Of a stretch of DNA of 64,000 nucleotides, positions 353 to 15,355 are shown piece after piece. The notes beneath the pieces are model-generated. The model did not search any database. It was given only the letters and a program-made list of their open reading frames with translations, and was not told the DNA's origin. The number at the start of each line of letters is the position of its first letter. The first letter of the stretch is position 1. This DNA comes from Blautia sp. (GTDB lineage Bacteria; Bacillota; Clostridia; Lachnospirales; Lachnospiraceae): positions 62,001 to 126,000 of the forward strand of contig JARIAR010000054.1 in the NCBI GenBank assembly GCA_029257805.1, read 5' to 3'. The position numbers were made by a program, and so were the translations under genes.

Positions 353-497
353 CTCCCAGTCTCCTTAAAGCCTCTTTTTGTTTTTATTATTATAACAAAA
401 AACAATGTATTTGAAAATGTTTTTTCCATTGAATCCCTTAAGTGAATCTGGTATAGTGTATGACGGCAACGGACACTTTTTTAGGGAGGAAATGAAA

Positions 498-1862
498 ATG
501 AAAACAACTGCCGACTTAGGAAGAGACTCTGTTTCTTCTCTTGTTTTGCGCCTGGCCATTCCGGCTATGGTAGCTCAGTTTGTAAATGTCCTGTACAGTA
601 TCATAGACCGTATGTACATTGGGCATATCCCTGTTTCAGGGGCGCATGCCCTGGCAGGTGTAGGAGTTTGCGGCCCTATTGTCACACTCCTAACTTCTTT
701 TGGTACACTTGTAGGTCTGGGCGGATCCATTCTAATGGGAATCCGTATGGGAGAAAAAAATTATAAGAAAGCAAAGCAAATTTTATCCAATTCTTTCTTA
801 CTTTTATGTATATTCTCTTTGCTTCTTACAATTACCTTTCTTCTCTGTAAGGACAAACTTCTCATGTGGTTTGGCGCCAGTTCCCTCACCTTTCCTTATG
901 CCAACACCTACATGACAATTTATACAGCCGGAACTTTTTTTGCACTTATGGCGGCAGGACTAAATTACTTTATCAATTGTCAGGGATTCCCTGTAATCGG
1001 AATGGCAACTGTGTTGATTGGAGCCATTTCTAATATCCTGCTTGATCCTTTATTTATATTCGTATTCCATATGGGCGTATCCGGTGCAGCTATTGCAACT
1101 GTCATTTCCCAGTTTGCATCCTGTACATTTGCTCTCTGGTTTTTATTAAGCAAAAAAATACACGTAAAGATTTCTTTCGGATCTTATGATCTCCGTGTTA
1201 TGGCGCGCATCCTATATCTAGGTTTTTCACCATTCATTATTTTGGCAACAGACAGTGTTATCCTCATTGCCATGAATACCGTTCTTCAAAAATACGGCGG
1301 ACCTTCTCAGGGAGATATGCTCATCACCTGTGCTACGATCGCGCAAAGCTATCTTCTTATGATCACCTCACCCATGATAGGCATCAGCGGAGGCACACAG
1401 GCAATTTTAAGCTACAATTATGGAGCCAAACAAACAGCCCGGGTAAAAAAAGCAGAAAAGAATATTTTAGCCCTTATGCTGGCATTCACAACCATTATGT
1501 TCCTTCTGTCTCAATTTATTCCTCAGTATTTTGTACGACTTTTTACAGCGGAACCTGCATATATGGAATGTTCCGTATGGGCAATCCGCATCTATACCAT
1601 GATGATCATCCCACTGAGCTTCCAATATGTTTTCGTAGATGGTCTGACTGCAATGGAACGTACAAAAACGGCACTTTCCCTTTCTGTTTTCCGAAAAGGA
1701 CTTTACGTTCTTTGTACCTTCCTTCTTCCTGTTTTTTTCTCTGCAAAAGCCGCCTTTTATGCAGAGCCGCTTGCAGATATTGCCAGTTCCATTCTTTCTA
1801 CTATTATTTTTCTTCTTATCATTAACAAACATCTGGAACGACGGGAACAGGTCATTATATAA
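498..1862 (+). CDS. MATE family multidrug/metabolite efflux transporter
   Basis: A 454-residue, strongly hydrophobic protein with about 12 predicted membrane spans. The start region (LVLRLAIPAMVAQFVNVLYS followed by IIDRMYIGH) is the conserved opening of MATE exporters, and ILLDPLFIF plus GGTQAILSYNYGA are typical of the repeated halves. Such proteins export cationic compounds using an Na+ or H+ gradient; the substrate cannot be read here. An in-frame ATG lies at 405, but AGGGAGGA at 483-490 is placed 7 nt before the ATG at 498, so I start there. It converges on a second MATE gene, sharing a terminator. The two proteins are clearly different sequences, not a recent duplication. Confidence 0.9.
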   Translation: MKTTADLGRDSVSSLVLRLAIPAMVAQFVNVLYSIIDRMYIGHIPVSGAHALAGVGVCGPIVTLLTSFGTLVGLGGSILMGIRMGEKNYKKAKQILSNSFLLLCIFSLLLTITFLLCKDKLLMWFGASSLTFPYANTYMTIYTAGTFFALMAAGLNYFINCQGFPVIGMATVLIGAISNILLDPLFIFVFHMGVSGAAIATVISQFASCTFALWFLLSKKIHVKISFGSYDLRVMARILYLGFSPFIILATDSVILIAMNTVLQKYGGPSQGDMLITCATIAQSYLLMITSPMIGISGGTQAILSYNYGAKQTARVKKAEKNILALMLAFTTIMFLLSQFIPQYFVRLFTAEPAYMECSVWAIRIYTMMIIPLSFQYVFVDGLTAMERTKTALSLSVFRKGLYVLCTFLLPVFFSAKAAFYAEPLADIASSILSTIIFLLIINKHLERREQVII

Positions 1863-1869
1863 ATATTGC

Positions 1870-1907
1870 AAAGAGGAGATGCTTCCATTATGAAACATCT
1901 CCTCTTT
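1870..1907. terminator. Bidirectional Rho-independent terminator between the two MATE genes
   Basis: A perfect 12-bp stem pairs 1870-1881 (AAAGAGGAGATG) with 1896-1907, with a 14-nt loop. T or A runs flank both sides, so it can serve both convergent genes. Confidence 0.85.
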
Positions 1908-1914
1908 ATTGCTT

Positions 1915-3279
1915 CTATTCAAGAGTATCTATTTCTCTTCTGTATACATATCGCAAAAACAGGAAGCTGACTGTCCCCGAAAAAATTTCAGAAATCGGAA
2001 AACACCACCATATTGCAGAAAGCCCCCACAATTTTGCCAGGATAAACGCAGCCGGAAGAATAACGATCAGCTGACGCAGTACAGAAACCATTAGACTAAG
2101 CATCCCATGTCCAAGAGCCTGAAAAACCGAAGAACATACAATCCCAAAACCGGCAAGCAGAAAACAAATGCTGATAATACGAAGGGCCGGAACTCCAATT
2201 TCCAACATAGCATCAGAAGCATTAAATATTTTCAAAAGTCCGGAACTAAAAAACTGAAAAATCAGCAAACCAAGAAACATAATACTTTCTGCATACATAA
2301 TGCTGAGACGAATTGTTTTTTTAATCCTTCCGGGCTTTCTTGCTCCATAGTTATATGCCACAATCGGAACCATTCCATTATTTAATCCAAACACAGGCAT
2401 AAAAATAAAACTCTGAAGTTTAAAATATACCCCGAAAACTGCCGTTGCAGTAGAAGTAAAGGCCATAAGAATCTTATTCATTCCAAATGTCATAACAGAT
2501 CCAATAGATGCCATGATAATAGATGGAATTCCAACACTATAGATCTGTCCTACCACAACTCCGGAAAGACGATACTTGATAATGGAAAGATGCAGTTCTT
2601 TGTTCTTCTTTCGATTAAACCAAAATGCCAGAGAAGCAGCCACTATCTGTCCTATAACCGTCGCAATTGCAGCACCTGCCACTTCAAGCCTGGGAAATCC
2701 AAACAAACCAAATATCAAAATCGGGTCAAGAATAATATTGATCACGGCGCCCAGGGACTGCGTGATCATTGTATAGATTGTCTTTCCTGTAGACTGCAGA
2801 AGTCTTTCAAAAACGAACTGAAAGAAAATACCAAATGACATCATTCCTACAATACGCACGTACCCAGATCCATATGCTACAATCTCCGCATTATCTGTCT
2901 GTATTTCAAAAAACAGCTTACCAAAAATACCCGTTAAAACAGCAAATGCCAGAAAGCTAAAAATCGCAAGATATATTCCATTATTTGCTGCTTTATTGGC
3001 ATGTTCCGTATTCTTTTCGCCCAGAGACCTGGATACCAAAGCATTCATACCAACTCCCGTACCGGTTCCCACCGCAATCATAAGGTTTTGTACAGGAAAG
3101 GCCAGAGATACTGCCGTAAGTGCATTTTCATTAATCTGTGCCACGAACATACTATCTACAATATTATACAACGCCTGTACAAGCATAGAAATCATAATTG
3201 GTACAGACATTGTGATCAATAATTTCCCTATTGGCATAATACCCATTTTATTTTCTGCTATCTTTGAATCCTGTTCCAC
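1915..3279 (-). CDS. MATE family multidrug/metabolite efflux transporter (second copy)
   Basis: A 454-residue polytopic membrane protein. It begins after a GTG codon at 3279 with GAGGAGG placed 7 nt upstream. MPIGKLLITMSVPIMISMLVQ, ALYNIVDSMFVAQI, INIILDPILIFG and MVPIVAYNYGAR are MATE family signatures found in both six-helix halves. The likely role is drug or metabolite export in exchange for Na+ or H+. It is convergent with the MATE gene at 498-1862 and is divergent from it in sequence. No adjacent regulator is seen. The substrate is unknown. Confidence 0.9.
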   Translation of the reverse strand: MEQDSKIAENKMGIMPIGKLLITMSVPIMISMLVQALYNIVDSMFVAQINENALTAVSLAFPVQNLMIAVGTGTGVGMNALVSRSLGEKNTEHANKAANNGIYLAIFSFLAFAVLTGIFGKLFFEIQTDNAEIVAYGSGYVRIVGMMSFGIFFQFVFERLLQSTGKTIYTMITQSLGAVINIILDPILIFGLFGFPRLEVAGAAIATVIGQIVAASLAFWFNRKKNKELHLSIIKYRLSGVVVGQIYSVGIPSIIMASIGSVMTFGMNKILMAFTSTATAVFGVYFKLQSFIFMPVFGLNNGMVPIVAYNYGARKPGRIKKTIRLSIMYAESIMFLGLLIFQFFSSGLLKIFNASDAMLEIGVPALRIISICFLLAGFGIVCSSVFQALGHGMLSLMVSVLRQLIVILPAAFILAKLWGLSAIWWCFPISEIFSGTVSFLFLRYVYRREIDTLE

Positions 3280-4419: not shown

Positions 4420-5307
4420 TCAAGAATGATATTCCAAAAAACACTGGACAGCACCTATAAGATTTGCATCATTTTGGAATTTACAACTTACAATTTCTGC
4501 TTGTGGAATAAAATAAGGGCACTCTGCATACAGCACTTTTAAATTTCTTTTTATGTATTCAATAAATACCGGTTGTGCACTGATTCCTCCACCTATCGCA
4601 AATCGTTCCGGATCCAGGATTGTCTGTATATTGAAAATTTGAACGGCAATTTCCCTTGTAAATTCCTGGAGACATTCCAAAGCTTCCGGATCTCCCTGAT
4701 TCACTCTTTCAAAAACTTTCATCCCATCTACATCTTCCGGCTGCAGATTCTTTTTTTCTGCGTACAATGCACAAAGTCTGGGAGTTCCACAGCGATTGCC
4801 CCACACAGCTTCCTTTTCCCCAAAACGCTCTTTTTCCGTATTAATGTAAGAGACTTCTCCTGCTGAAAAATGTTTCCCTCGATGAAGCACATGATTTTTG
4901 ATAAACGCTCCGCCTATCATGGTTCCAAAAATCAGAACAAAGCCATCCTCCACATCTGAGAGGCTCCCTATGGCCGCCTCTGCCATAGCAGCACATTTTG
5001 CATCATTTTCTATATAAATCTTCACAGGACAACGCTGATAAAGGCGATTTCGGAAATAAAAATCATCATTATAGCGCAAGGCTCCTCCCATAACACAATA
5101 TCCGTTTTCGGAATCAATAATGCCCGGCATGGAAACTGCAATGCCTTCTATATCCAAAAAACTATCATAAATTTCACCAATCGTTTCCACCAGTTCCTCT
5201 CTGGTTCCCGGAGTCCTTACCTTCCCTTTCGATAACATTGTACAATTTTCCTTCATAAAGGCATACTTTATAAAAGTTCCCCCAATATCTACAGCCAGTA
5301 TTTTCAT
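4420..5307 (-). CDS. ROK family sugar kinase, candidate anhydrosugar kinase
   Basis: A 295-residue kinase of the ROK (NagC/glucokinase) fold. The N-terminus MKILAVDIGGTFIKYAF carries the phosphate-binding DIGGT motif, and IENDAKCAA carries the expected catalytic Asp. The region after FGTMIGGAFI has NRCGTPRLC instead of the usual CxCGxxGCxE zinc site, so the zinc motif looks lost. In-frame ATGs exist at 5319 and 5307; I chose 5307 because it gives the typical ROK start. The gene lies 31 nt after the glycyl radical enzyme stop, on the same strand, so it is probably in one operon. A sensible role is phosphorylating the sugar that the radical enzyme then attacks (inference). Confidence 0.85.
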   Translation of the reverse strand: MKILAVDIGGTFIKYAFMKENCTMLSKGKVRTPGTREELVETIGEIYDSFLDIEGIAVSMPGIIDSENGYCVMGGALRYNDDFYFRNRLYQRCPVKIYIENDAKCAAMAEAAIGSLSDVEDGFVLIFGTMIGGAFIKNHVLHRGKHFSAGEVSYINTEKERFGEKEAVWGNRCGTPRLCALYAEKKNLQPEDVDGMKVFERVNQGDPEALECLQEFTREIAVQIFNIQTILDPERFAIGGGISAQPVFIEYIKRNLKVLYAECPYFIPQAEIVSCKFQNDANLIGAVQCFLEYHS

Positions 5308-5338
5308 CGTTTTCCCCATTCTCTTCCCAAGTATTTTC

Positions 5339-7753
5339 CTATAATGTCTGTTCGGTTCTCCCAATAATATCATCCTGTGTTTTTTTCGAAAGCACATTAA
5401 AGAATGCACTATATCCAGCAACACGAACAATTAAATCTTTATGATTTTCCGGATGTTTCTGCGCGTCTAAAAGTGTTTCTTTCGAAACAATATTATATTG
5501 CACATGATATCCGTGAAGTCTGTTAAAAAATGCCCGGATCAACATTTCCAGTTTTTGTTTATTTTCTTCTGTGGAAAGCATCTGCGGCGTCATTTTTTGA
5601 TTCAGAAGTACTCCGCCTGTGATTTTTTCCGTAGGAAGCTTGGAAACTGTTTTAAACACGGCTGTTGGACCATTCTTATCTGTATTATGCGCAGGGCTGC
5701 AGCCTTCTGCCAAAGGTTCACACGCATTCCTTCCATCCGGTGTCGCCATAGTGCCCATTCCCTGCCCAACATTGGCACTTATGGAAGAAGTTCCGCCATA
5801 TCGAATTCCCCCAATTGGTCCTCTCTGAAAACGTGTATTTGGATATTTTTTAATTTCATCCAAATAAGAATCATACGCTTCTACTACCAATTGATCTACA
5901 TAGTCATCATCATTTCCATATTTCGGTGCATCATTTATGAGCATTTCCTGAATTTTTTTATTTTTCGGTGATTGAAAATCATCAAGCAATGCATTCCACA
6001 ATTCTTCTCTGGTGATTTTCTTTTCCTCATATACCAGTTTTCGAATAGCTGCAAGGGAATCTGCCATATTCGCTATTCCAACCTGAAGTCCGGAGATAAA
6101 ATCGTAAACAGCTCCCCCTTCTTTAATCGTCTTTCCCCTTCCAATACAATCATCTGTAAGCGCAGAACAAAGAATATCCGGCACATCTCTTTCCGAAGCC
6201 TTATCTATGACATTTTCTACAATCACACTGTAACGAGTCATTTCACGCACCGTCTGATCCCACGCTTCAAGTAACTCTTCATATGACTCCATTTCTGTAA
6301 AATATCCATATCCTTTTGTAAATCTTTTTCCACTTGTAAGATCAACTCCATTATTCATGGCACATAGCAAGACACGTGGAAAATTAATATATGACATTCC
6401 GGTACACCGATATCCCCATTTGCCTGGAACTGCAGTTTCCACACAGCCAATGGCACTGTAATTATATGCATCTTTTTCCTTAACACCCCAATTTATAAAG
6501 GAAGGAATAATCACTTCATCATTATTAAGAGCCGGCATTCCAAATCCAAGCTTCATAACCTCGATGCATTCATCAAAAAATTTCTTATTTATATTGGCAT
6601 GATAGCGAACTGTCAGATTTGGCTGAGTCAGCCTTGTTTGAGCCACAGATTTTAATACAGCAAAACTCAGTTCATTGACAGCATCTTTTTTATCAGGTGT
6701 CTGCCCGCCAATTGTAACATTCTGATACATAGGGGAGCCCGCAGAACTTAATGTGTGGGCCTGAGAGCGCACCTTATTTATCGTCAATGTTTTGATCCAT
6801 AAACATGTCAAAAGTTCCAGTGCATCTTCTTCTGTTATTTTTCCTTCCTGAATATCTTTTATATAATATGGATACATGTACTGATCGAATCTTCCGTAAC
6901 TTAACGAATGTCCATTTGACTCAATCTGTAAAACCAGCTGTATAAACCACACCGCCTGTACTGCCTCACGAAAAGAAGCCGCCGGCTCGTATGGAACTTT
7001 TTCACAAATACGACTTATCTCCAAAAGTTCTGTCTTCCTTGCAGGATTCTGTTCCGCTTCTGATAACTCCTTTGCCAGTTTGCTATAACGCAACGCAAAA
7101 TCATGAACTGCTTCTATTACCATCAGTACGGCTTTATAAAAAATATTTTTATCAATATTCTCCGGTTTCGTAAAATCAAGTGCGGACTGAAGAGCCCTTG
7201 TTTTTTGCTCATATCCTTTCAGTCCTTCTGACAAAACTTTTTCATAATTCACTGCCAAATGGGCATCTCCTGCATTAAGTTTTCCTTCCATACCAAAAAC
7301 ACCCGTCTCCATAAATACCTGGACTTCATCTGGAAGGAGAGCTTCTCCCCTGGCTCTGAGATTATTATTATCCCAAAATGGAGCAATCTCACGAAGCTGT
7401 TTTTTTGTAGTTTCCGTAATATAAAACACATCGCCATCTCTTTTTTCAAAAAGATCAAGTTCATTTAAAATAAATTCCATGGTATATTCCGGAAAAACAG
7501 GTGCATTGCGATTTTTTGTTGCCTGATTTCCTGCCAGAATTGATTTCTCTTCAATATAAATCGTCATTTCTTCCAGGATTTTTTTCAACATACAGGCTCT
7601 CACCATCACACGGGGCTGATTCTTATTTTCTTTGTAGGCCTGCGTTGCCAATACCGCTCTTTCCCCGTCAATATATGGCTTTTCATCTAAAACTTCCTCA
7701 CGGAAACTTTGCATACGATCTGTTAATACCCCAAAATGCGCTTTATTCTCCAT
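5339..7753 (-). CDS. Glycyl radical enzyme of the YbiW/PflD group (candidate anhydrohexitol-6-phosphate lyase)
   Basis: An 804-residue glycyl radical enzyme. The thiyl site is AIGCVETAV with Cys437 and Glu439, and the radical loop is VRVAGYSAF with Gly780 near the C-terminus. LQIESNGHSLSYGR, MATPDGRNACEPLAEG, and the ending YNIVSKETLLDAQKHPE through DDIIGRTE closely follow my recollection of E. coli YbiW and PflD along the whole length. Those enzymes open the ring of 1,5-anhydroglucitol- or 1,5-anhydromannitol-6-phosphate. Pyruvate formate-lyase itself has a Cys-Cys pair that is absent here. The start at 7753 is set by AAGGAG at 7760-7765. Its activase is encoded divergently. The exact substrate needs testing; propanediol or hydroxyproline dehydratase activity seems less likely. 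Confidence 0.93.
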   Translation of the reverse strand: MENKAHFGVLTDRMQSFREEVLDEKPYIDGERAVLATQAYKENKNQPRVMVRACMLKKILEEMTIYIEEKSILAGNQATKNRNAPVFPEYTMEFILNELDLFEKRDGDVFYITETTKKQLREIAPFWDNNNLRARGEALLPDEVQVFMETGVFGMEGKLNAGDAHLAVNYEKVLSEGLKGYEQKTRALQSALDFTKPENIDKNIFYKAVLMVIEAVHDFALRYSKLAKELSEAEQNPARKTELLEISRICEKVPYEPAASFREAVQAVWFIQLVLQIESNGHSLSYGRFDQYMYPYYIKDIQEGKITEEDALELLTCLWIKTLTINKVRSQAHTLSSAGSPMYQNVTIGGQTPDKKDAVNELSFAVLKSVAQTRLTQPNLTVRYHANINKKFFDECIEVMKLGFGMPALNNDEVIIPSFINWGVKEKDAYNYSAIGCVETAVPGKWGYRCTGMSYINFPRVLLCAMNNGVDLTSGKRFTKGYGYFTEMESYEELLEAWDQTVREMTRYSVIVENVIDKASERDVPDILCSALTDDCIGRGKTIKEGGAVYDFISGLQVGIANMADSLAAIRKLVYEEKKITREELWNALLDDFQSPKNKKIQEMLINDAPKYGNDDDYVDQLVVEAYDSYLDEIKKYPNTRFQRGPIGGIRYGGTSSISANVGQGMGTMATPDGRNACEPLAEGCSPAHNTDKNGPTAVFKTVSKLPTEKITGGVLLNQKMTPQMLSTEENKQKLEMLIRAFFNRLHGYHVQYNIVSKETLLDAQKHPENHKDLIVRVAGYSAFFNVLSKKTQDDIIGRTEQTL

Positions 7754-7768
7754 AATTTTCTCCTTATA

Positions 7769-7872
7769 TTTCATTCGTAATATCATCCGTTTTATTTGTA
7801 ATTAAAATCTATCATTTTTTATAAAACATGTCAATATATTTTATTAGAAATCAATTATACTTTCATTTGTAA
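7769..7872. promoter_or_regulatory. Divergent control region with three copies of a TYATTYGTAA motif, candidate DeoR operators
   Basis: Three direct 10-bp repeats lie between the radical enzyme and activase genes: TCATTCGTAA at 7771-7780, TTATTTGTAA at 7792-7801 and TCATTTGTAA at 7863-7872. The first two start 21 bp apart, two helical turns; the third is 71 bp further. The middle copy covers the predicted start point of the minus-strand promoter and the last lies upstream of the activase. They are the obvious binding sites for the DeoR regulator encoded two genes away (inference). Confidence 0.55.
7806..7834 (-). promoter_or_regulatory. Sigma-A type promoter of the glycyl radical enzyme-kinase operon
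   Basis: On the minus strand TTGACA (7829-7834) and TAGATT (7806-7811) are separated by exactly 17 bp. Transcription would start near 7799, about 46 nt before the ATG at 7753. Confidence 0.75.
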
Positions 7873-7942
7873 GTATATGTTTAATTTTTTCTTTTTTTAT
7901 GTTATAATAATACCATTCCATATAGAAAGGCATTCCATAACT

Positions 7943-8857
7943 ATGAAAAAAGCAGATCGCACAAAAAGTGGTATAATATTTAATATACAAAAATTCAGTG
8001 TTAATGATGGACCAGGTATACGTACTGTTGTATTTTTCAAGGGTTGTCCCCTTCGTTGCCGCTGGTGTTCCAATCCCGAAAGCCAGCTTTCTGTTCCACA
8101 GATATTATGGAACGAAAAGCAATGTACACATTGTCTCCACTGTACAGAAACATGTCCCGAACATGCCGTCTTACTCCAGCAGGGTCGCATCCATATAAAT
8201 GCAGGTATTTGCAGCAACTGTTTGCAATGTGTAAACGAATGTCCCGGAAAAGCACTAAAATCCGAAGGCGAAAATAAAACTGTTGAGGAAATTTTAAATA
8301 CCGTTCTTCAGGATCAGGTTTTTTACGAAGAAAGCGGCGGCGGAATCACACTTTCCGGCGGAGAATTTTTATCCCAGCCATCCTTTGCAGAGGAACTGCT
8401 TCTTGCTTCAAAAGAAGAAGGACTTCATACATGCTGTGAAACAACGGGCTATGCACAACCAGAAATATTTCAACGCATCATCCGGCATGTAGACTATATT
8501 TTATTCGATATGAAACACTGGGACGAAAAAAAACATATAGAAGGAACAGGCGGCTCCAATAAACTTCCACTTTCCAATATGGCCTATGCCATTCAAACCA
8601 AAAAAACCGTACTGCCAAGAATTCCTGTTATTCCCGGATTTAACGATTCTCCTAAAGACGCTACCCAGTTTTCAAAGAAACTTCTCGAACTTGGAATTAA
8701 AAAATGCCAGCTTCTTCCTTTTCATCAGTTTGGTGAAAACAAATATGATTTATTAAACAAGGAATATGATTATAGAAATATTCTTTCCTTGCATCGAGAG
8801 GATTTAGAAGATTATTTGAAAATTTTTCACGCAAACAATATTGAGGCTTTTTTTTAA
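7943..8857 (+). CDS. Glycyl radical enzyme activating enzyme (radical SAM, PflA-like)
   Basis: A 304-residue radical SAM activase that makes the glycyl radical on the divergent enzyme using SAM and a [4Fe-4S] cluster. The N-terminus has FSVNDGPGIRTVVFFKGC and the diagnostic CX3CX2C (Cys35, 39, 42). It is followed by an inserted double ferredoxin-like domain with two CxxCxxCxxxCP sets (Cys61-71 and Cys90-100), typical of activases for dehydratase-type glycyl radical enzymes rather than PFL. GGGITLSGGEF is the SAM-binding GGE motif. An upstream in-frame ATG at 7877 lies in an AT-rich hydrophobic run; I prefer 7943, which has AGAAAGG upstream. A TATAAT at 7913-7918 may be its -10 box. The DeoR gene follows after 16 nt. 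Confidence 0.93.
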   Translation: MKKADRTKSGIIFNIQKFSVNDGPGIRTVVFFKGCPLRCRWCSNPESQLSVPQILWNEKQCTHCLHCTETCPEHAVLLQQGRIHINAGICSNCLQCVNECPGKALKSEGENKTVEEILNTVLQDQVFYEESGGGITLSGGEFLSQPSFAEELLLASKEEGLHTCCETTGYAQPEIFQRIIRHVDYILFDMKHWDEKKHIEGTGGSNKLPLSNMAYAIQTKKTVLPRIPVIPGFNDSPKDATQFSKKLLELGIKKCQLLPFHQFGENKYDLLNKEYDYRNILSLHREDLEDYLKIFHANNIEAFF

Positions 8858-8873
8858 CCAGAAAGGATTTCAT

Positions 8874-9617
8874 ATGAAAGACAGATCAAATAAAATACTA
8901 GAACTTCTTATACAGGAAAATAAAGCAGAGGTTTCCTTTCTTTCGGAGAAACTGGGCGTATCTCAGGTAACCATTCGAAAAGATCTGGACTCCCTGGAAC
9001 AACGCGGGATCATTAAACGGGAACATGGCTTTGCTCTTCTTCGCAGTACAGATGATATTAACGGAAGAATCGCTTATCACTATGAAGAAAAACGAGAAAT
9101 CGCCCAAAAAGCTGCTGCCCTCGTTTCGAATGGAGACACCATCCTGATTGAAAGCGGAAGCTGCTGCGCCCTTTTAGCAGATGCTCTTGCAAATTCAAAA
9201 AAAGATTTAACCATTATTACTAACAGCGCGTTTATTGCCGGATATATCCGCGAAAAATCAAACTTTCAAATTATTCTTCTCGGTGGAATCTACCAGCAGG
9301 ATTCTCAGGTAATGGTAGGCCCCATGATTCTCCAATGTGTAGAAAATTTTCTTGTAGATTTCTTTTTTATTGGTACCGACGGATACGACAAACGGGCCGG
9401 CTTTACAAATCGGGATCAAATGCGAGCCCAAGCAGTCCGCGATATGGCACGACAAGCAAACCATATTGTGGTTTTAACAGAAAGCGATAAATTTTCCAAA
9501 CATGGAGTTGTCCCTCTCAATTTAAAAAACAAAGTAAAGACGGTTATCACAGACAATCATCTTTCTGCAGAAACAAAAGCGGATCTGGAGAGCAAAGGAA
9601 TTCGTATTATTATATAA
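8874..9617 (+). CDS. DeoR/GlpR family transcriptional regulator
   Basis: A 247-residue regulator. The N-terminal winged helix includes VSFLSEKLGVSQVTIRKDLD followed by LEQRGIIKREHG, the DeoR signature. The C-terminal DeoRC sensor domain contains LIESGSCCALLADAL and FFIGTDGYD, the fold that binds phosphorylated sugars. The start at 8874 is preceded by GAAAGGA with 6-nt spacing and sits 16 nt after the activase stop, so the two are cotranscribed. Regulators of this family usually repress a nearby sugar-use operon and are released by a sugar phosphate. The neighbouring kinase and radical enzyme would provide that phosphate ester. The 10-bp repeats at 7771-7872 are its likely sites. Confidence 0.9.
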   Translation: MKDRSNKILELLIQENKAEVSFLSEKLGVSQVTIRKDLDSLEQRGIIKREHGFALLRSTDDINGRIAYHYEEKREIAQKAAALVSNGDTILIESGSCCALLADALANSKKDLTIITNSAFIAGYIREKSNFQIILLGGIYQQDSQVMVGPMILQCVENFLVDFFFIGTDGYDKRAGFTNRDQMRAQAVRDMARQANHIVVLTESDKFSKHGVVPLNLKNKVKTVITDNHLSAETKADLESKGIRIII

Positions 9618-9643
9618 TCTTTACCACAAAAAGGCATAAGAAA

Positions 9644-9667
9644 ACCGTCTGGTTTTTACCAGACGGT
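9644..9667. terminator. Hairpin terminator between the DeoR gene and the element remnant
   Basis: ACCGTCTGGT (9644-9653) pairs perfectly with 9658-9667 around a 4-nt loop. The better T run (TTTT) is on the minus strand, so it ends minus-strand transcription and may also stop the DeoR transcript. Confidence 0.75.
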
Positions 9668-9811
9668 CATTCTCATGCTTGTTTTATATATTCTAATATC
9701 CTTTCTCTATTTCGCTGTTTCTGAGTCTTTCTCTTTATTTCTGCACTTATTATCATCCCTGCACACAAATCCCATAACTCCGTAACACCAAAATAGATAC
9801 TCCCATGTTTT

Positions 9812-10024
9812 CTACTTCTTCCAAACATCCCCTACAAGATATTCTATAGCCTTCCACATTAACTTTTCTAAAAGAGAAATAATATAAATTCCAACAAGGT
9901 ACCCAGGAATGAACAACGGCATATTGCTCCATGCAATACCTGGCGCACATATTATAAAAAATACAATTGCCAAAGCTAATGTTACTGGACGATATTTTAT
10001 CCATTGCAATATCTTTTTACTCAT
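9812..10024 (-). CDS. Small membrane protein of unknown function in the element remnant
   Basis: A 70-residue protein starting at ATG 10024 with a strong GGAGG 7 nt upstream. Residues about 14-55 form one or two membrane spans (VTLALAIVFFIICAPGIAW and FIPGYLVGIYIISLL), with a basic N-terminus and an amphipathic tail. I do not recognise a family. It lies 61 nt downstream of a phage-tail-chaperone-like fragment on the same strand, within a stretch of decayed mobile DNA, so it is probably cargo of that element. A 27-codon frame further downstream (ending just before the hairpin at 9644) is too short to call. Confidence 0.6.
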   Translation of the reverse strand: MSKKILQWIKYRPVTLALAIVFFIICAPGIAWSNMPLFIPGYLVGIYIISLLEKLMWKAIEYLVGDVWKK

Positions 10025-10085
10025 ATATGTCCTCCCTGTTCCTTTTCTTCCCCTGATTCTGCCTGCATTCCCTCTTCATTTTTCT

Positions 10086-10250
10086 TTATAGACCATCTTG
10101 ATTTCCAGATAGCCGGAAGCCTGTAAGCTTGTTTTCAAACTCCGACATATCCTGATATTTATCCTGTATCTTTTCCAATACCAACATATCACACTTGATT
10201 GGATACGCTTTACCTGACAAAACAACTTTTGCTGTATTTCTTTTAAACAT
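10086..10250 (-). pseudogene. Short phage tail-assembly-chaperone-like gene, apparently truncated
   Basis: A 54-codon frame with AAGGAG 6 nt before ATG 10250. The N-terminal text AKVVLSGKAYPIKCDMLVLE followed by KIQDKYQDMSEFENKL resembles a small clostridial phage protein located among tail genes (a tail assembly chaperone-like protein), as far as I recall. Those proteins are usually longer than 100 residues; here the similarity ends at about residue 45 and the frame stops nine codons later. I read it as a truncated remnant. No other tail gene lies nearby. Family identity is tentative. Confidence 0.5.
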
Positions 10251-10333
10251 TTTTCTCTCCTTATGAAACCTTATTACGACTTTCAGTCGTATTAAATATA
10301 TAAGCTATTTTATCAAAAAGGAGGATATGTATC

Positions 10334-11007
10334 ATGTTTTTCTTTTCCGAAGAAGAAATATCTAGAAGCACTTCCAATTCCTCAAATATTAATTCTAGTT
10401 ATACCGAAACAATTTTTGAATCTATAAAACATATCAATGAATATGAGCAAGAATTTGGGTATGCCAGAGAATTGCAAACTGTTTTAAAGTATACCAAATG
10501 ACGAAATTTTCACAAGGTAATTGAACGTGCAAAAGAAGCTTGTTCCAATAGTAATAACCCCATTTCCGATCATTTTTTTGAGGTCAACAAAACGATACGA
10601 ATGCCCCAAAATGCAACAAAAAAAGTTGTTGATTATAAATTGCCTCGTTATGCTTGCTACCTCATCGTTCAAAATAGTGACTCCAGAAAAAAAGTTATTG
10701 CTCTTGGTCAAACATATTTTTCTGTAAAAACCAGACAACAGGAATTAATAGAAAATTATGATTCTCTTGATGAAGCAGCACAAATGACCGGCATTAAAAA
10801 TCCTATAGATTATGCTATTTTTCAAAACCAGGGTTACCAGGGCTTGTACGGTGGACTTGGAGTAAAAGAAATACATAAACACAAGGTTCTAAAAAAGAAT
10901 CAAAAAATGCTGGATCACATGGGCAGTACTGAATTAGCTGCTAATCAAACACATTATGAAGTCAGGAAAAAGTCCGTCAAACAATTGCGGAACTTCCTAG
11001 AAAATAA
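10334..11007 (+). pseudogene. dinD: Broken dinD (DNA-damage-inducible protein D) gene
   Basis: Plus-strand frames from ATG 10334 (AAGGAGG upstream) read as DinD: FESIKHINEYEQEFGYAREL, then RNFHKVIERAKEAC, KLPRYACYLIVQNSDSRKK and FQNQGYQGLYGG, ending in KKNQKMLDHMGSTELAAN. There are several lesions. TGA at 10499-10501 replaces a Trp codon in the same frame. The part between QELIENYDSL and DEAAQ is shorter than in E. coli DinD. After TELAAN about 23 codons are missing. Finally a frameshift near 10970 moves VRQTIAELP into another frame, which stops at 11007. In E. coli dinD is an SOS gene. Here it is clearly non-functional and belongs to the mobile element remnant. Confidence 0.85.
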
Positions 11008-11055
11008 AATAAAAACCGCCCTATGCTACCAATACAGAGACGGCTTGTATACCCG

Positions 11056-11096
11056 AAGATATACTCTTATAACAAAAATATTGTATCATCTTCGGA
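11056..11096. repeat. Imperfect inverted repeat in the element remnant
   Basis: CGAAGAT near 11058 pairs with ATCTTCG near 11096, with further pairing inside the arms. It precedes the zinc-ribbon start codon by about 75 nt and may be leftover regulatory or end DNA of the element. Confidence 0.4.
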
Positions 11097-11169
11097 GCAG
11101 CCTTGCAACCGTAACGTATTTTCGGAGGCTGTTATTTTTATACCCAAAATTGAAGCGGAGGATGATATT

Positions 11170-11253
11170 ATGGCATTGATTAAATGTCCGGAATGTGAAT
11201 TAACGGTAAGTGATAAAAGATTTACCGTTGAATCCATATCACCGTCCTCATGA
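11170..11253 (+). pseudogene. Zinc-ribbon protein start fused to integrase DNA
   Basis: ATG 11170 has GGAGG 8 nt upstream. The first 16 codons, MALIKCPECELTVSDK, match the start of common small zinc-ribbon proteins that carry a CxxC pair, but the second CxxC is missing. From codon 17 the DNA is the out-of-frame 3' part of an integrase gene and the frame ends at 11253. I read this as a deletion junction near 11208-11225. Confidence 0.6.
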
Positions 11254-11425
11254 TCCAAGAATGACTTTTATTACTGCAGATAAAAAAGCGGGAATTGCTG
11301 ATGGCGTAATCAAAAAGATGGCCGGACATAAAATTACAGACATCACAGAATCTGCTTATACAGATCGTGATATTGAATGGCTTCGAAAAGACATAGAGAA
11401 ATTATATAAAATTGAGGGCGTATAA
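11210..11425 (+). pseudogene. Tyrosine recombinase (integrase), C-terminal fragment
   Basis: A 71-codon frame holding only the end of a tyrosine integrase catalytic domain. HRPHDPRMTFIT contains the HxxR box, MAGHKITDIT the next conserved His, and ESAYTDRD the catalytic Tyr. The N-terminal DNA-binding and core-binding domains (normally about 300 residues) are absent, so the ATG at 11210 is accidental. It marks this stretch as a decayed prophage or integrative element. The 5' boundary is the same junction that cuts the zinc-ribbon gene. Confidence 0.8.
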
Positions 11426-11434
11426 CACGCCCTC
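11414..11434. terminator. Hairpin terminator at the integrase end, likely shared with the GGGtGRT gene
   Basis: GAGGGCGT (11414-11421) pairs with ACGCCCTC (11427-11434) around ATAAC. AATTTT follows on the minus strand. It overlaps the integrase stop and lies about 90 nt past the stop of the minus-strand GGGtGRT gene. Confidence 0.65.
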
Positions 11435-11521
11435 GATAAATTTTAGTATACACTTTTACCATTTTCAACGGTTTTTCTTGATTTTTAACAATCCTTTAAA
11501 CCCTTGATTTTACTGGATTTA

Positions 11522-12532
11522 TTAGAATTTACCTTCTTTTGCAGCTTCTTCAATGGAAACTGCAACAGCAACAGTCATACCAACCATCGGGTTGTTACCT
11601 GCACCGATCAGACCCATCATTTCTACGTGAGCCGGTACGGAAGAGGAACCTGCAAACTGTGCGTCAGAATGCATACGACCTAATGTATCAGTCATACCAT
11701 AGGAAGCAGGACCTGCTGCCATGTTGTCTGGATGAAGTGTACGTCCTGTACCACCGCCAGATGCAACAGAGAAGTATTTTTTGCCTTTTTCAAGACATTC
11801 TTTTTTGTATGTACCTGCTACCGGATGCTGGAAACGTGTTGGGTTTGTAGAGTTACCTGTAATGGAAACATCAACGCCCTCTTTCCACATGATTGCAACA
11901 CCTTCCGGAACGCTGTTTGCTCCGTAGCAGTTTACTTTTGCGCGAAGACCTTCAGAGTAGGATTTACGGAATACTTCTTTAACTTCATTTGTATATGGAT
12001 CGTATTCTGTTTCTACATATGTAAAGCCGTTAATTCTTGCGATAATCTGAGCAGCATCTTTTCCAAGACCGTTCAGGATAACACGAAGTGGTTTCTGACG
12101 AACTTTGTTTGCTTTCTCAGCAATACCAATTGCACCTTCTGCTGCTGCGAAAGATTCATGACCAGCAAGGAATGCGAAACATTCTGTCTCTTCTTCCAGA
12201 AGCATTTTTCCAAGGTTACCATGTCCCAGACCTACTTTACGTGTGTCTGCTACAGAGCCAGGAATACAGAAAGCCTGAAGACCTTCACCAATCGCTGCTG
12301 CTGCATCTGCAGCTCTCTTACAGCCTTTTTTGATTGCAATTGCTGCACCTACAATGTAAGCCCAACATGCATTTTCAAAACAGATTGGCTGAATGCCTTT
12401 AATCTGATCGTATACGTTCAGACCTGCATCTTTTGTGATTTTTTCTGCTTCTTCAAGAGAAGCAATGCCATAACTATTTAAAACAGAATTGATTTTCTCA
12501 ATTCGTCTCTCGTATGATTCAAATAAAGCCAT
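11522..12532 (-). CDS. GGGtGRT family protein, function unknown
   Basis: A 336-residue soluble protein that carries the family's name motif as SGGGTGRTLHPD near residue 270. Other fixed-looking segments are ENACWAYIVGAA, PGSVADTRKVGLGHGNLGK and GHESFAAAEGAIGIAEKAN. Gly-rich loops suggest a nucleotide- or cofactor-binding fold, but I know of no assigned reaction. It follows the NifU-like gene by 22 nt on the same strand with a good ribosome binding site (GAGGTAACGAG). The two form a conserved pair in clostridia, so a role linked to an iron-sulfur or other metal cofactor is plausible but unproven. Confidence 0.9.
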   Translation of the reverse strand: MALFESYERRIEKINSVLNSYGIASLEEAEKITKDAGLNVYDQIKGIQPICFENACWAYIVGAAIAIKKGCKRAADAAAAIGEGLQAFCIPGSVADTRKVGLGHGNLGKMLLEEETECFAFLAGHESFAAAEGAIGIAEKANKVRQKPLRVILNGLGKDAAQIIARINGFTYVETEYDPYTNEVKEVFRKSYSEGLRAKVNCYGANSVPEGVAIMWKEGVDVSITGNSTNPTRFQHPVAGTYKKECLEKGKKYFSVASGGGTGRTLHPDNMAAGPASYGMTDTLGRMHSDAQFAGSSSVPAHVEMMGLIGAGNNPMVGMTVAVAVSIEEAAKEGKF

Positions 12533-12554
12533 TTCTCGTTACCTCCTCATCAAA

Positions 12555-13247
12555 TTATTCTTTTCTTGGGTCAATAATCTTAACAGCATCAGCTACACGG
12601 CCATACTGACCTTTTGCTTTTTCCCATGCAGTATTCGGGTCATCGCCTTTTTTGATGAAGTCAGTCATTTTTCCAAGGCTTACAAACTGATAACCAATGA
12701 TTTCATCATCTGCATCAAGTGCAATACCTGTTACATAGCCTTCTGCCATTTCCAGATAACGAGGGCCTTTTTTAAGAGTTCCATACATTGTACCAACCTG
12801 AGAACGAAGTCCTTTTCCAAGATCTTCAAGACCAGCACCTACTGGAAGTCCGTCTTCAGAGAAAGCAGACTGTGTACGTCCATAAACGATCTGAAGGAAC
12901 AGTTCTCTCATTGCTGTATTAATTGCATCACAAACAAGGTCTGTGTTCAGTGCCTCCATTACAGTCAGTCCCGGAAGAATTTCAGAAGCCATAGCTGCAG
13001 AATGAGTCATACCAGAACATCCGATTGTCTCAACCAGTGCTTCCTGGATAATACCCTCTTTTACATTCAGAGTCAGCTTACATGCACCCTGCTGTGGTGC
13101 ACACCAGCCAACGCCGTGTGTAAGACCGGAAATGTCTTTGACTTCTTTTGCCTGTACCCATTTCGCTTCTTCTGGAATTGGAGCAGCGCCATGATGAACG
13201 CCCTGTGCAACTGGGCACATTTCTTCTACTTCGCGTGAATAAATCAT
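12555..13247 (-). CDS. NifU/IscU-like iron-sulfur scaffold protein of the GGGtGRT pair
   Basis: A 230-residue protein. HGVGWCAPQQGACKLTL and ETIGCSGMTHSAAMASEI follow the NifU N-terminal fold with its conserved Cys residues, which hold a transient [2Fe-2S] cluster in IscU. Another Cys occurs at residue 11 and one in TDLVCDAIN. The C-terminal 100 residues extend beyond a normal IscU. It is the first gene of a two-gene operon with the GGGtGRT gene, and no nifS/iscS desulfurase lies nearby, so it may serve a dedicated target rather than general cluster assembly. The start at 13247 has AAAGGAG upstream. Confidence 0.88.
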   Translation of the reverse strand: MIYSREVEEMCPVAQGVHHGAAPIPEEAKWVQAKEVKDISGLTHGVGWCAPQQGACKLTLNVKEGIIQEALVETIGCSGMTHSAAMASEILPGLTVMEALNTDLVCDAINTAMRELFLQIVYGRTQSAFSEDGLPVGAGLEDLGKGLRSQVGTMYGTLKKGPRYLEMAEGYVTGIALDADDEIIGYQFVSLGKMTDFIKKGDDPNTAWEKAKGQYGRVADAVKIIDPRKE

Positions 13248-13279
13248 TTTAAAACTCCTTTCAAGTATAGATTGACTTA

Positions 13280-13306
13280 TAATGTTGTTAAAATGAACCT
13301 AACAAC
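13280..13306 (-). promoter_or_regulatory. Promoter with a perfect inverted repeat ahead of the NifU-like/GGGtGRT operon
   Basis: On the minus strand TTGTTA and TTATAA are 17 bp apart and could be the promoter. GTTGTTA (13284-13290) and TAACAAC (13300-13306) form a 7-bp perfect inverted repeat with a 9-bp centre that covers the -35 box and spacer, the right place for a repressor. Confidence 0.45.
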
Positions 13307-13441
13307 CTATGATTATTTTCTCACAAAATTCGCCATTCGTCCAGTCATATTTTGTAAAAACTCCTCTTTTTTCTGTTTCCTTTGCTTTTTTCTGTCTGAA
13401 AACGCCTGTACGAAAGCATATGATTAAAAAAATAACAAAAA

Positions 13442-13471
13442 AGCATTGGTACTTTATATGATGCCAATGCT
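13442..13471 (-). terminator. Terminator of the cardiolipin synthase gene
   Basis: AGCATTGG (13442-13449) pairs with CCAATGCT (13464-13471). On the minus strand the stem is followed by TTTTTTG. Confidence 0.8.
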
Positions 13472-13500
13472 CTCTTATTTATTTGGTCACAACCTTCTCC

Positions 13501-15102
13501 TTATAACATAGGTGCAAAAAGCCGAAGTACACTTTGCATTGCCCGCACCGGAACAGGGCGCTCTCTGCAAAAGGAAAGGCTGATAGGATTACAGTAATCC
13601 AATGTCTCTATAAAATCTTTTTTTATGTCATCGATCACTTCGTTTTTATATAGCCATACACCATCTTCAAAATGAAGATATAAACTTCGGTAATCAAGAT
13701 TAATCGTACCCACAACTCCCACTTCATCATCACATACAAAAGATTTTGCATGAAGAAATCCGGGCTGATATTCGTAAATCTTAACGCCAGCTTCCAAAAG
13801 CTGCTCATAATATGATTGCGTAAGAAGAAAAACCATTTTTTTATCAGGGATTCCAGGAGTCATGATCCGAACATCCACTCCGCTTTTTGCCGCCAGGCAA
13901 AGTGCTGTCATCATTTCATTGTCAATAATAAGATACGGCGTACAAATATATACGTATCTTTTCGCTCTGTTTATAATATTCAGATACACATTTTCACCTA
14001 CGATTTCATGATCCAAAGGTGTATCACAAAACGGCTGTACATATCCGCTTCCCTCAAAAGGATCCGGATGATAATTATGAGGAAAATATGCATCATAAGG
14101 ACATTTTTCACGAGTCCTGTTCACCACCTGCCACATATGGAGAAACATGGCCGTCATATTCCAAACCGCTTCTCCCTTCAGCATGATCGCCGTATCTTTC
14201 CAGTGTCCAAAACGTTTTCTCTGATTGATGTACTCATCTGCCAGATTGATTCCCCCTGTAAAGCCGGTATGTCCGTCAATAATACAAAGTTTACGATGGT
14301 CACGATTATTCTGTATAATATTTAAAAGAGGGCGAAATGGATTAAACACAACACATTTAATGCCTTTTTTACGAAGTTCTTCGTAATATTTATTTGGAAG
14401 CGTTGTAAGACATCCAAACCCGTCATACATTAAACGAACATCCACTCCCTGAGCAGCCTTTCTTTCCAGTATCTTCAGAATAGTTTGCCACATCACTCCA
14501 TCGTTAATAATAAAATATTCAATAAAGATATAGTGTTCTGCCTGTTCCAGCTCCTTTACAAGAACCGGAAACATATCGTCTCCTACCTGAAAATATTCTG
14601 CCGCTGTGTTTTTTCCCAATGGATAACCGGAATAATCCCGGATATATGCAGACTGGTTTGCAGCCGAAGGATTTTCTTCCTCCAGACTTTTCCTTGTTTC
14701 TTCATTTTCTGCAAGATACTCACGGCTCTCTTCAAATATTTTCTCAAAATTCTCTTCCATCACTGCCGCGATTCTGGATTGTCCAAACAAAAGATACAGA
14801 AGAAGGCCAAATACCGGAATACATAAAATCACCATAGTCCATGCCAGCTTATACGATGGATTGATTTTCTTATTTACGATCCACAAAACTACCAAAATGG
14901 TCCCAACTTCCATTGCCATGGAAATATAACGGGAATATCCTACAAATTTTGCTGCCATGAGAAAAATCCAAACCAGCTGAACGAAAAGCGCCAAACCAAC
15001 ATAAAAAATACGATTAAAACAAATTTTGATTACTTTACTTAAAAACTGCATGAGAATGCTTTGTTTCTTTTTTATTCCCTCGTTCTTCTCTTTGTAAATC
15101 AT
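13501..15102 (-). CDS. cls: Cardiolipin synthase (phospholipase D superfamily)
   Basis: A 533-residue inner-membrane enzyme that joins two phosphatidylglycerols to give cardiolipin and glycerol. Two N-terminal membrane helices (about 25-70) are followed by two PLD domains with HxKx4D-type motifs: HRKLCIIDGHTGFTGGINLA near 268 and HAKSFVCDDEVGVVGTINLD near 452. The length fits bacterial Cls. In-frame ATGs occur at 15114 and 15102; GAGGTG lies 6 nt before the second, which I use. It has its own terminator and no operon partners. Confidence 0.93.
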   Translation of the reverse strand: MIYKEKNEGIKKKQSILMQFLSKVIKICFNRIFYVGLALFVQLVWIFLMAAKFVGYSRYISMAMEVGTILVVLWIVNKKINPSYKLAWTMVILCIPVFGLLLYLLFGQSRIAAVMEENFEKIFEESREYLAENEETRKSLEEENPSAANQSAYIRDYSGYPLGKNTAAEYFQVGDDMFPVLVKELEQAEHYIFIEYFIINDGVMWQTILKILERKAAQGVDVRLMYDGFGCLTTLPNKYYEELRKKGIKCVVFNPFRPLLNIIQNNRDHRKLCIIDGHTGFTGGINLADEYINQRKRFGHWKDTAIMLKGEAVWNMTAMFLHMWQVVNRTREKCPYDAYFPHNYHPDPFEGSGYVQPFCDTPLDHEIVGENVYLNIINRAKRYVYICTPYLIIDNEMMTALCLAAKSGVDVRIMTPGIPDKKMVFLLTQSYYEQLLEAGVKIYEYQPGFLHAKSFVCDDEVGVVGTINLDYRSLYLHFEDGVWLYKNEVIDDIKKDFIETLDYCNPISLSFCRERPVPVRAMQSVLRLFAPML

Positions 15103-15138
15103 TCCACACCTCAAAAAAGTATACTGTGCTGTGATATT

Positions 15139-15170
15139 AAAAATCCCTGACTAAACAGCCAGGGATTTTT
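15139..15170 (-). terminator. Terminator after rpsU
   Basis: AAAAATCCCTG (15139-15149) pairs with CAGGGATTTTT (15160-15170). On the minus strand it sits 9 nt past the rpsU stop, and its right arm supplies a T run. Confidence 0.85.
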
Positions 15171-15178
15171 GCGCACAA

Positions 15179-15355
15179 TTAATTATATTTACGTTTTCTT
15201 GCGGCTTCAGATTTTTTCTTACGACGAACGCTTGGTTTCTCGTAATGTTCTCTCTTGCGGATTTCCTGCTGAATACCTGCTTTAGCACAGCTTCTCTTAA
15301 ATCTGCGAAGAGCGCTATCTAAAGTCTCGTTCTCTTTTACGATTACATTTGACAT
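15179..15355 (-). CDS. rpsU: Small ribosomal subunit protein bS21
   Basis: A 58-residue, highly basic protein: [20 protein letters not shown] at the start and an Arg/Lys-rich tail ending RKRKYN. This is standard bS21, which binds near the 3' end of 16S rRNA and helps initiation. A longer frame upstream to 15466 exists, but the family start is at 15355, with AGGTGTGAG as ribosome binding site. It is 135 nt downstream of alaS on the same strand, room enough for its own promoter. Confidence 0.97.

Follow-up and report, generated by a model that had tools for sequence, protein, structure and literature searches.

In Escherichia coli, fsaA adjoins ybiW-ybiY, and in the work of Ma et al. (JACS 2024) fructose-6-phosphate aldolase (FSA) and GldA reportedly act after ring opening of the YbiW type. 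YbiW and PflD are glycyl radical enzymes (GREs) that, according to the part of a 2025 review that deals with them (PMC12441222), cleave 1,5-anhydroglucitol-6-phosphate and 1,5-anhydromannitol-6-phosphate, respectively, to 1-deoxyfructose-6-phosphate after phosphorylation by a phosphotransferase system (PTS), which is the chemistry on which the original prediction for the present DNA had drawn. A further operon, SP0245-SP0253 of the pneumococcus, has a gene order that, as given in the relevant section of a 2012 survey (PMC3302838), matches that of the streptococcal operons described below; S. pneumoniae itself lay outside the loci compared here. The same section of the survey (PMC3302838) places PflR sites upstream of SP0245, SP0246 and SP0251 and reports the PTS of the operon without a substrate.

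The DNA analysed here, referred to as the window, is a stretch of 64,000 nucleotides from a Blautia genome (G000); L and G numbers denote the loci and genomes compared. Positions 4420-9617 of the window hold four genes, all intact, which flank one divergent promoter (Table 1). The predicted set of ROK kinase, GRE, activase and DeoR regulator was thus present as described, C437, E439 and G780 were confirmed in the 804-aa frame of the GRE, and the activase was found by Pfam to carry the domains expected of a dual-cluster enzyme. The start codons of the GRE and activase genes lie 189 bp apart, and 31 bp separate the stop codon of the GRE gene from the start codon of the ROK gene. None of the four genes was assigned to a PTS by Pfam. 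A foreign origin of the locus was rejected as far as base composition is concerned, the GC content being 38.6% in the locus and 38.5% in the window. Two convergent genes at 405-3279, which by eye resemble MATE-type exporters, adjoin the locus. In our reading, the locus probably encodes anhydroglucitol glycolysis of the kind established for YbiW in E. coli, but in a version that is fed by a kinase.

Table 1. Features of the locus, with positions in the window
Feature	Position	Strand	Basis
ROK-family sugar kinase, BglK-like, 295 aa; proposed ATP-dependent 1,5-anhydroglucitol 6-kinase	4420..5307	-	Pfam ROK
YbiW-type glycyl radical enzyme (GRE), 804 aa, C437/E439/G780; proposed anhydroglucitol-6-phosphate ring-opening lyase	5339..7753	-	Pfam PFL-like and Gly_radical
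Copy of the proposed DeoR operator, TTACGAATGAAA; lies between -10-like box and GRE start	7769..7780	-	motif
Copy of the proposed DeoR operator, TTACAAATAAAA; lies just past the -10-like box	7790..7801	-	motif
Sigma-70-like promoter TTGACA-17-TAGATT for GRE-ROK	7806..7834	-	consensus match; such matches here are no commoner than in shuffles
Copy of the proposed DeoR operator, TTACAAATGAAA; lies upstream of the -35-like box	7861..7872	-	motif
Radical SAM GRE activase with ferredoxin-type 4Fe-4S domains	7943..8857	+	Pfam Radical_SAM and 4Fe-4S ferredoxin-type
DeoR-family regulator, proposed repressor of the divergent promoter	8874..9617	+	Pfam DeoRC and HTH_DeoR

When the GRE was compared with solved structures, the best scores were obtained with 6xs4, named formate C-acetyltransferase (878 bits), and with E. 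coli YbiW (865 bits), followed by glycerol dehydratase (594 bits), diol dehydratase (563 bits) and PflD (467 bits). The enzyme had been predicted to resemble both YbiW and PflD along its length, and it does so, with YbiW clearly closer (BLAST identity of 49% versus 36%). Before a tree was built, 10 streptococci and 4 rows that were duplicates or partial were removed, which left 111 GREs. With support 1.0, this tree separated the window enzyme, YbiW and 79 further sequences from 30 others, among them PflD and the diol dehydratase of the window's genome, so that the suggested placement among YbiW, PflD and the dehydratases grouped the enzyme with YbiW, which is itself the outermost member of the clade. 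Clade-signature positions (n=61) were defined, with YbiW and PflD both left out of the choice, by conservation in 97% or more of the clade and rarity elsewhere. YbiW has 46 of the 61, and PflD has 6; some of the positions form the loop [KR]WGYRCTGMS, which follows the catalytic CxE, and others an RGP insertion of three residues. By its sequence, the GRE belongs to the YbiW clade; its catalytic residues and its partner activase are present as well.

In database records, proteins of this kind go under the names formate acetyltransferase or pyruvate formate lyase, yet it is highly improbable that the window enzyme is a pyruvate formate-lyase or a GRE of the propanediol, glycerol, hydroxyproline or choline type. 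Apart from the tree and the signature residues, which put it with YbiW, every NCBIfam equivalog that it matched stayed far below its cut-off (595 versus 1100, 548 versus 1050, and 565 and 541 versus 1000 bits for models of the hydroxyproline, choline and sulfopropanediol types), and the genome has a separate diol dehydratase. The lyase and dehydratase readings were rejected on the tree, the signature residues and these cut-offs, and a PflD-type reading was rejected on the position of PflD outside the clade, its identity and its few signature positions.

The gene neighbourhood was then compared in the best 80 relatives (70-89% GRE identity) of at least 588 confirmed matches (at least 593 matching stretches) in genome contigs. 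The GRE of one cultured relative, Anaerobutyricum hallii, is 88% identical to that of the window. Among these best 80 of at least 588, tblastn placed an FSA no more than 4 kb downstream of the GRE in 64 and found none at that distance in the other 16, to which the window adds a further such case; among the 16, the sequence of L051 ends 320 bp and that of L055 2263 bp past the GRE, and L065 and L067 have their FSA farther away. In most of the same best 80, the GRE has a DeoR homologue next to it. The complete three parts of a lactose/cellobiose-type PTS, the sole PTS type searched, were present in 20 of the best 80, all of them streptococci, and a ROK like that of the window was found within 6 kb downstream of the GRE in 10 (in L076 as a 49% fragment only, and in L032 in two frames). 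No locus with the lactose-type PTS was ROK-linked among these 20, an exclusion that is confounded by ancestry because the PTS loci all come from Streptococcus. Two of the ROK operons carry the whole proposed route, as GRE-FSA-GldA-ROK in L017 and as GRE-FSA-ROK-GldA in L014. In L010, the genes are ordered as in L017, with IS200/IS605-type genes ahead of the ROK gene; IS200-like TnpA and IS605 OrfB/TnpB-like genes occupy 6523-8075 there, between GldA and ROK. No transporter is linked to the window locus, and none was seen among the few neighbours scanned from the ROK operons of L010, L015, L037 and L074.

Longer stretches round GRE relatives, from whole genomes, gave a set of 11, with FSA within 4 kb downstream in 7 (L146, L148, L149, L150, L152, L153 and L154) and none within that distance in 4 (L145, L147, L151 and L155); judged by its length, the contig of L152 is that of L074, which is one of the best 80. 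In L146, the FSA is accompanied by a glucose-type PTS and GldA. In Streptococcus castoreus (L067, 2813-17832), a YbiW-type and a PflD-type GRE, with 52% and 60% identity to the respective E. coli enzymes, are followed by one FSA, and PTS parts for both GREs, FrwB- and FrwC-like parts included, lie in the same single cluster. In L026 and L027, the 4 kb downstream of the GRE hold no FSA. The GRE is followed there by an esterase-like alpha/beta hydrolase in both loci and by a DkgA-like aldo-keto reductase in L026 (model match), with a counterpart in L027 that clusters with it; the pathway may thus finish differently in these two. The stretch 1943-12639 of L148 (G167:C1) combines a GRE of 58% identity with a ribose-type ABC transporter, a ROK kinase with the zinc motif, an FSA and a D-allulose-6-phosphate 3-epimerase (284 bits versus a curated cut-off of 271), and is possibly a route for anhydroallitol or a related sugar.

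Because the identity to YbiW is only 49% and YbiW is outermost in the clade, a related anhydrohexitol phosphate is possible as the substrate of the GRE. Another phosphorylated 1,5-anhydrohexitol, such as the mannitol, galactitol or allitol form, with a ROK kinase to match, could be the one acted on in the window, and the gene set of L148, epimerase included, does suggest stereochemical variety. We consider such a substrate unlikely, since the relatives of 70-89% identity (best 80 of at least 588) keep the signature residues shared with YbiW and mostly have a direct FSA partner, and since the PflD type, the one reported for the mannitol form, is not part of the clade and occurs alongside the YbiW type in L067.

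In the proposed reading, the ROK kinase would take the place of the PTS. The best NCBIfam match of the window ROK is BglK (NF042998), with 166 bits against a cut-off of 550, which is not reached; it is closest to BglK-like kinases, and its best solved relatives are 2gup and 4htl. The ROK protein had been described as having lost its usual zinc motif. The CxCGxxGC motif is indeed absent, but its loss is no peculiarity: of 16 further distinct ROK proteins in the alignment, only the ROK of L148 retains it, and the 15 without it include homologues from genomes that have no GRE. The loss as a sign of changed function was rejected, being a trait common to related BglK-like ROKs.

A single clade with support 1.0, apart from the ROKs of 38-46% identity found in the family, unites the GRE-linked ROKs, whose genomes are labelled Lachnospiraceae, Erysipelotrichaceae or Oscillospiraceae. 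As the GRE-linked loci had been found through their GRE, the independent test of the tie between kinase and GRE is a search of 299 family genomes with a completeness of 85 or more, drawn irrespective of the GRE, in which E values of 1e-200 or better for the GRE and of 1e-60 or better for the ROK were required. The GRE was found in 11 of the 299 and the ROK in 10 (11 matches), and only the window's own ROK and that of G289 (71%) exceeded 46% identity; both genomes have the GRE. In 9 of the 11 GRE genomes of this sample, no ROK match was obtained at E 1e-60, so the ROK is not the sole way to feed the GRE.

The ROK might instead be an ordinary glucokinase or beta-glucoside kinase that is a neighbour by chance, with anhydroglucitol phosphorylated by a PTS or an unlinked kinase. 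BglK as its best match, although at a score far below the cut-off, the PTS enzyme I encoded in the genome, and the 70 of the best 80 relatives (of at least 588) that have no ROK within 6 kb downstream, the close ones L006 and L007 included, fit such a role. Set against these are the single clade formed by the GRE-linked ROKs of three families and the fact that the sole ROK above 46% identity outside the window's genome, among the 299 family genomes, sits in a genome with the GRE, and we regard a chance neighbour as rather improbable. Because the ROK clade is tied to the GRE and operons exist in which GRE, FSA, GldA and ROK stand together, the ROK protein is favoured as the putative 6-kinase of anhydroglucitol; a BglK-like pocket, tolerant of C1 groups, would suit a sugar without a C1 hydroxyl.

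The aldolase that the E. coli pathway uses had been noted as missing. This holds for the operon, where only 31 bp lie between the GRE and ROK genes, but was rejected for the genome, which encodes two TAL_FSA proteins, on contigs 35 and 12. The suggested genome search for an FSA-like aldolase succeeded with the protein of contig 35, which scores 267 bits versus a cut-off of 214 with NF009299, although below the cut-offs of two other FSA models. Positions Q59, K85, T109 and Y131 of FsaA, which we take to be its key residues, are kept in this protein and in 59 of the 59 FSAs of the neighbour cluster. Its gene adjoins gldA and an FGGY kinase gene. The contig-12 protein was counted as transaldolase-like and not as an FSA, though it is above the cut-off of a model named fructose-6-phosphate aldolase, because its gene adjoins a transketolase-like gene (by eye) and K and F replace Q59 and Y131. 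With an FSA elsewhere in the genome, the pathway need not end differently, as had been considered in the original prediction. Since GRE, FSA and ROK stand together in L037, probably the locus of the genus mate G035, loss of FSA from the window operon is the simplest account.

The FSA gene of contig 35 belongs to an island (L090, 4382-8972) of gldA, a GntR-type regulator gene (by eye), FSA and the FGGY kinase, which might degrade 1-deoxyketoses. Its GldA-type gene (L090, 4382-5479) scores 551 bits versus 336 for the glycerol dehydrogenase subfamily and 514 versus 700, thus below the cut-off, for the GldA equivalog. This FSA may serve another pathway, because homologues of 84% and 73% identity occur, with the FGGY kinase alongside, in two genomes without a GRE match in a genus sample of 41 genomes (G000 included), because the group in which it falls (support 0.93) holds 30 FSAs whose loci are mostly streptococcal or enterococcal and not the FSAs of the window's nearest GRE relatives, and because contig 35 has no exact copy of the operator described below. 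A diol-dehydratase GRE was found on contig 50 of G000 (1348 bits to 5i2a), with an aldehyde dehydrogenase nearby. Its surroundings (L156, about 7400-15190) comprise this GRE, an activase, a class II aldolase-like protein, a CoA-type aldehyde dehydrogenase and a zinc alcohol-dehydrogenase-like protein, a gene set that resembles a propanediol/fuculose locus.

The divergent region contains three copies of TTACRAATRAAA, which are its only exact matches in the 64 kb. For the comparison with relatives, 19 loci were tried, of which one was dropped for another gene order and one as a duplicate, leaving 17 distinct divergent regions with that of the window. With up to one mismatch, the motif had 43 matches in the 17 regions, of which 16 had two or more; 200 Markov-shuffled sets gave 2.07 matches on average and 8 at most. 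Among the best 80 relatives of at least 588, at least one such match lay within 250 bp upstream of the GRE in 77 of 78 loci (L034 and L057, whose GRE starts at a contig end, being excluded), compared with 2 of 78 control stretches inside the gene. A wider regulon was not apparent from the 16 exact sites in the genome, as a reversed control gave 15, so only the local cluster of three operators stands out. The DeoR protein would be the one to bind these proposed operators.

The reading as anhydrosugar glycolysis is favoured by the placement in the YbiW clade, by the FSA linked in 64 of the best 80 relatives (of at least 588), by the operons with GRE, FSA, GldA and ROK and by the tie between ROK and GRE. 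Next to what is observed, namely gene content, clade membership, linkage, operator conservation and FSA-, GldA- and diol-dehydratase-like genes, we infer a substrate, a kinase reaction, the use of the unlinked FSA and GldA, an importer and repression. In the proposed route, 1,5-anhydroglucitol would enter the cell by a permease and be phosphorylated at O6 by the ROK protein with ATP. The activase would generate a radical on Gly780 that is passed to Cys437, which would start C-O cleavage and open the ring to give 1-deoxyfructose-6-phosphate. The unlinked FSA of contig 35 could then split this product into glyceraldehyde-3-phosphate and hydroxyacetone, the GldA beside it could reduce hydroxyacetone to 1,2-propanediol, and the propanediol dehydratase of contig 50 could convert the latter to propanal. 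Both transcripts would be repressed by the DeoR protein via the three TTACRAAYRAAA operators until the pathway sugar or a sugar phosphate is present. A PTS route for anhydroglucitol may also operate, since the genome has a PTS enzyme I.

At E 1e-200 or better, the GRE was found in 3 of 41 genus genomes and in 11 of 299 family genomes (counts that include the genome of the window), and it is therefore an accessory trait. 1,5-Anhydroglucitol occurs in food and blood and is a clinical marker of glucose control. It is also, according to part of the 2025 review (PMC12441222), the precursor of the metabolite by which neutrophils are impaired in two inherited disorders. The identity of the gut bacteria that consume it, and the route by which they do so, are therefore of interest. 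Judged from its genes, this cluster most likely allows a gut bacterium to use anhydroglucitol as food, and the kinase route would extend the consumers beyond PTS users. We rate the GRE chemistry as known and its feeding by a kinase instead of a PTS as new; no title on the kinase-linked form was found in the literature searched, the coverage of which did not extend to Ma et al. (JACS 2024), and priority is not claimed. If the pneumococcal operon is of the streptococcal type compared, the reading also provides a substrate hypothesis for the PTS SP0248-50, which is given without a substrate in the section of the 2012 survey cited above (PMC3302838). More tentatively, and with somewhat less than even confidence, gut Firmicutes may hold a PTS-independent branch of anhydrohexitol glycolysis with a dedicated ROK clade, of which the window operon has lost the aldolase, borrows the FSA-GldA pair and drains hydroxyacetone via propanediol and a second GRE; the clade may span other stereoisomers, for example an allitol form with an epimerase step as in L148.

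Compared with YbiW/YbiY and FsaA of E. coli, the locus shares the GRE clade, the signature residues and the activase partner, and an FSA neighbour is common to E. coli and to 64 of the best 80 relatives (of at least 588). The two differ in that the GREs are only 49% identical, in that phosphorylation is attributed to a PTS in E. coli (in the part of PMC12441222 on these enzymes) and would be due to a ROK kinase in the window operon, and in that the latter is without FSA, has a DeoR regulator and is laid out divergently. PflD of E. coli with the Frw PTS, an anhydromannitol-6-phosphate lyase, is a related GRE with the same product in that part of the review (PMC12441222), but it is 36% identical, falls outside the clade and is without the W446 and RGP insertions. 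The BglK-like ROK kinases 2gup and 4htl, the best solved relatives of the window ROK, also have no CxCGxxGC in their aligned parts, whereas the window ROK is far below the BglK cut-off and in a GRE-linked clade of its own. The streptococcal operons, with a lactose-type PTS, YbiW-type GRE, FSA and GldA, have a GRE 70-72% identical to that of the window and share with it the DeoR regulator and the operator motif; FSA and mostly GldA are present in the streptococci, in which a PTS stands in place of the ROK kinase of the window.
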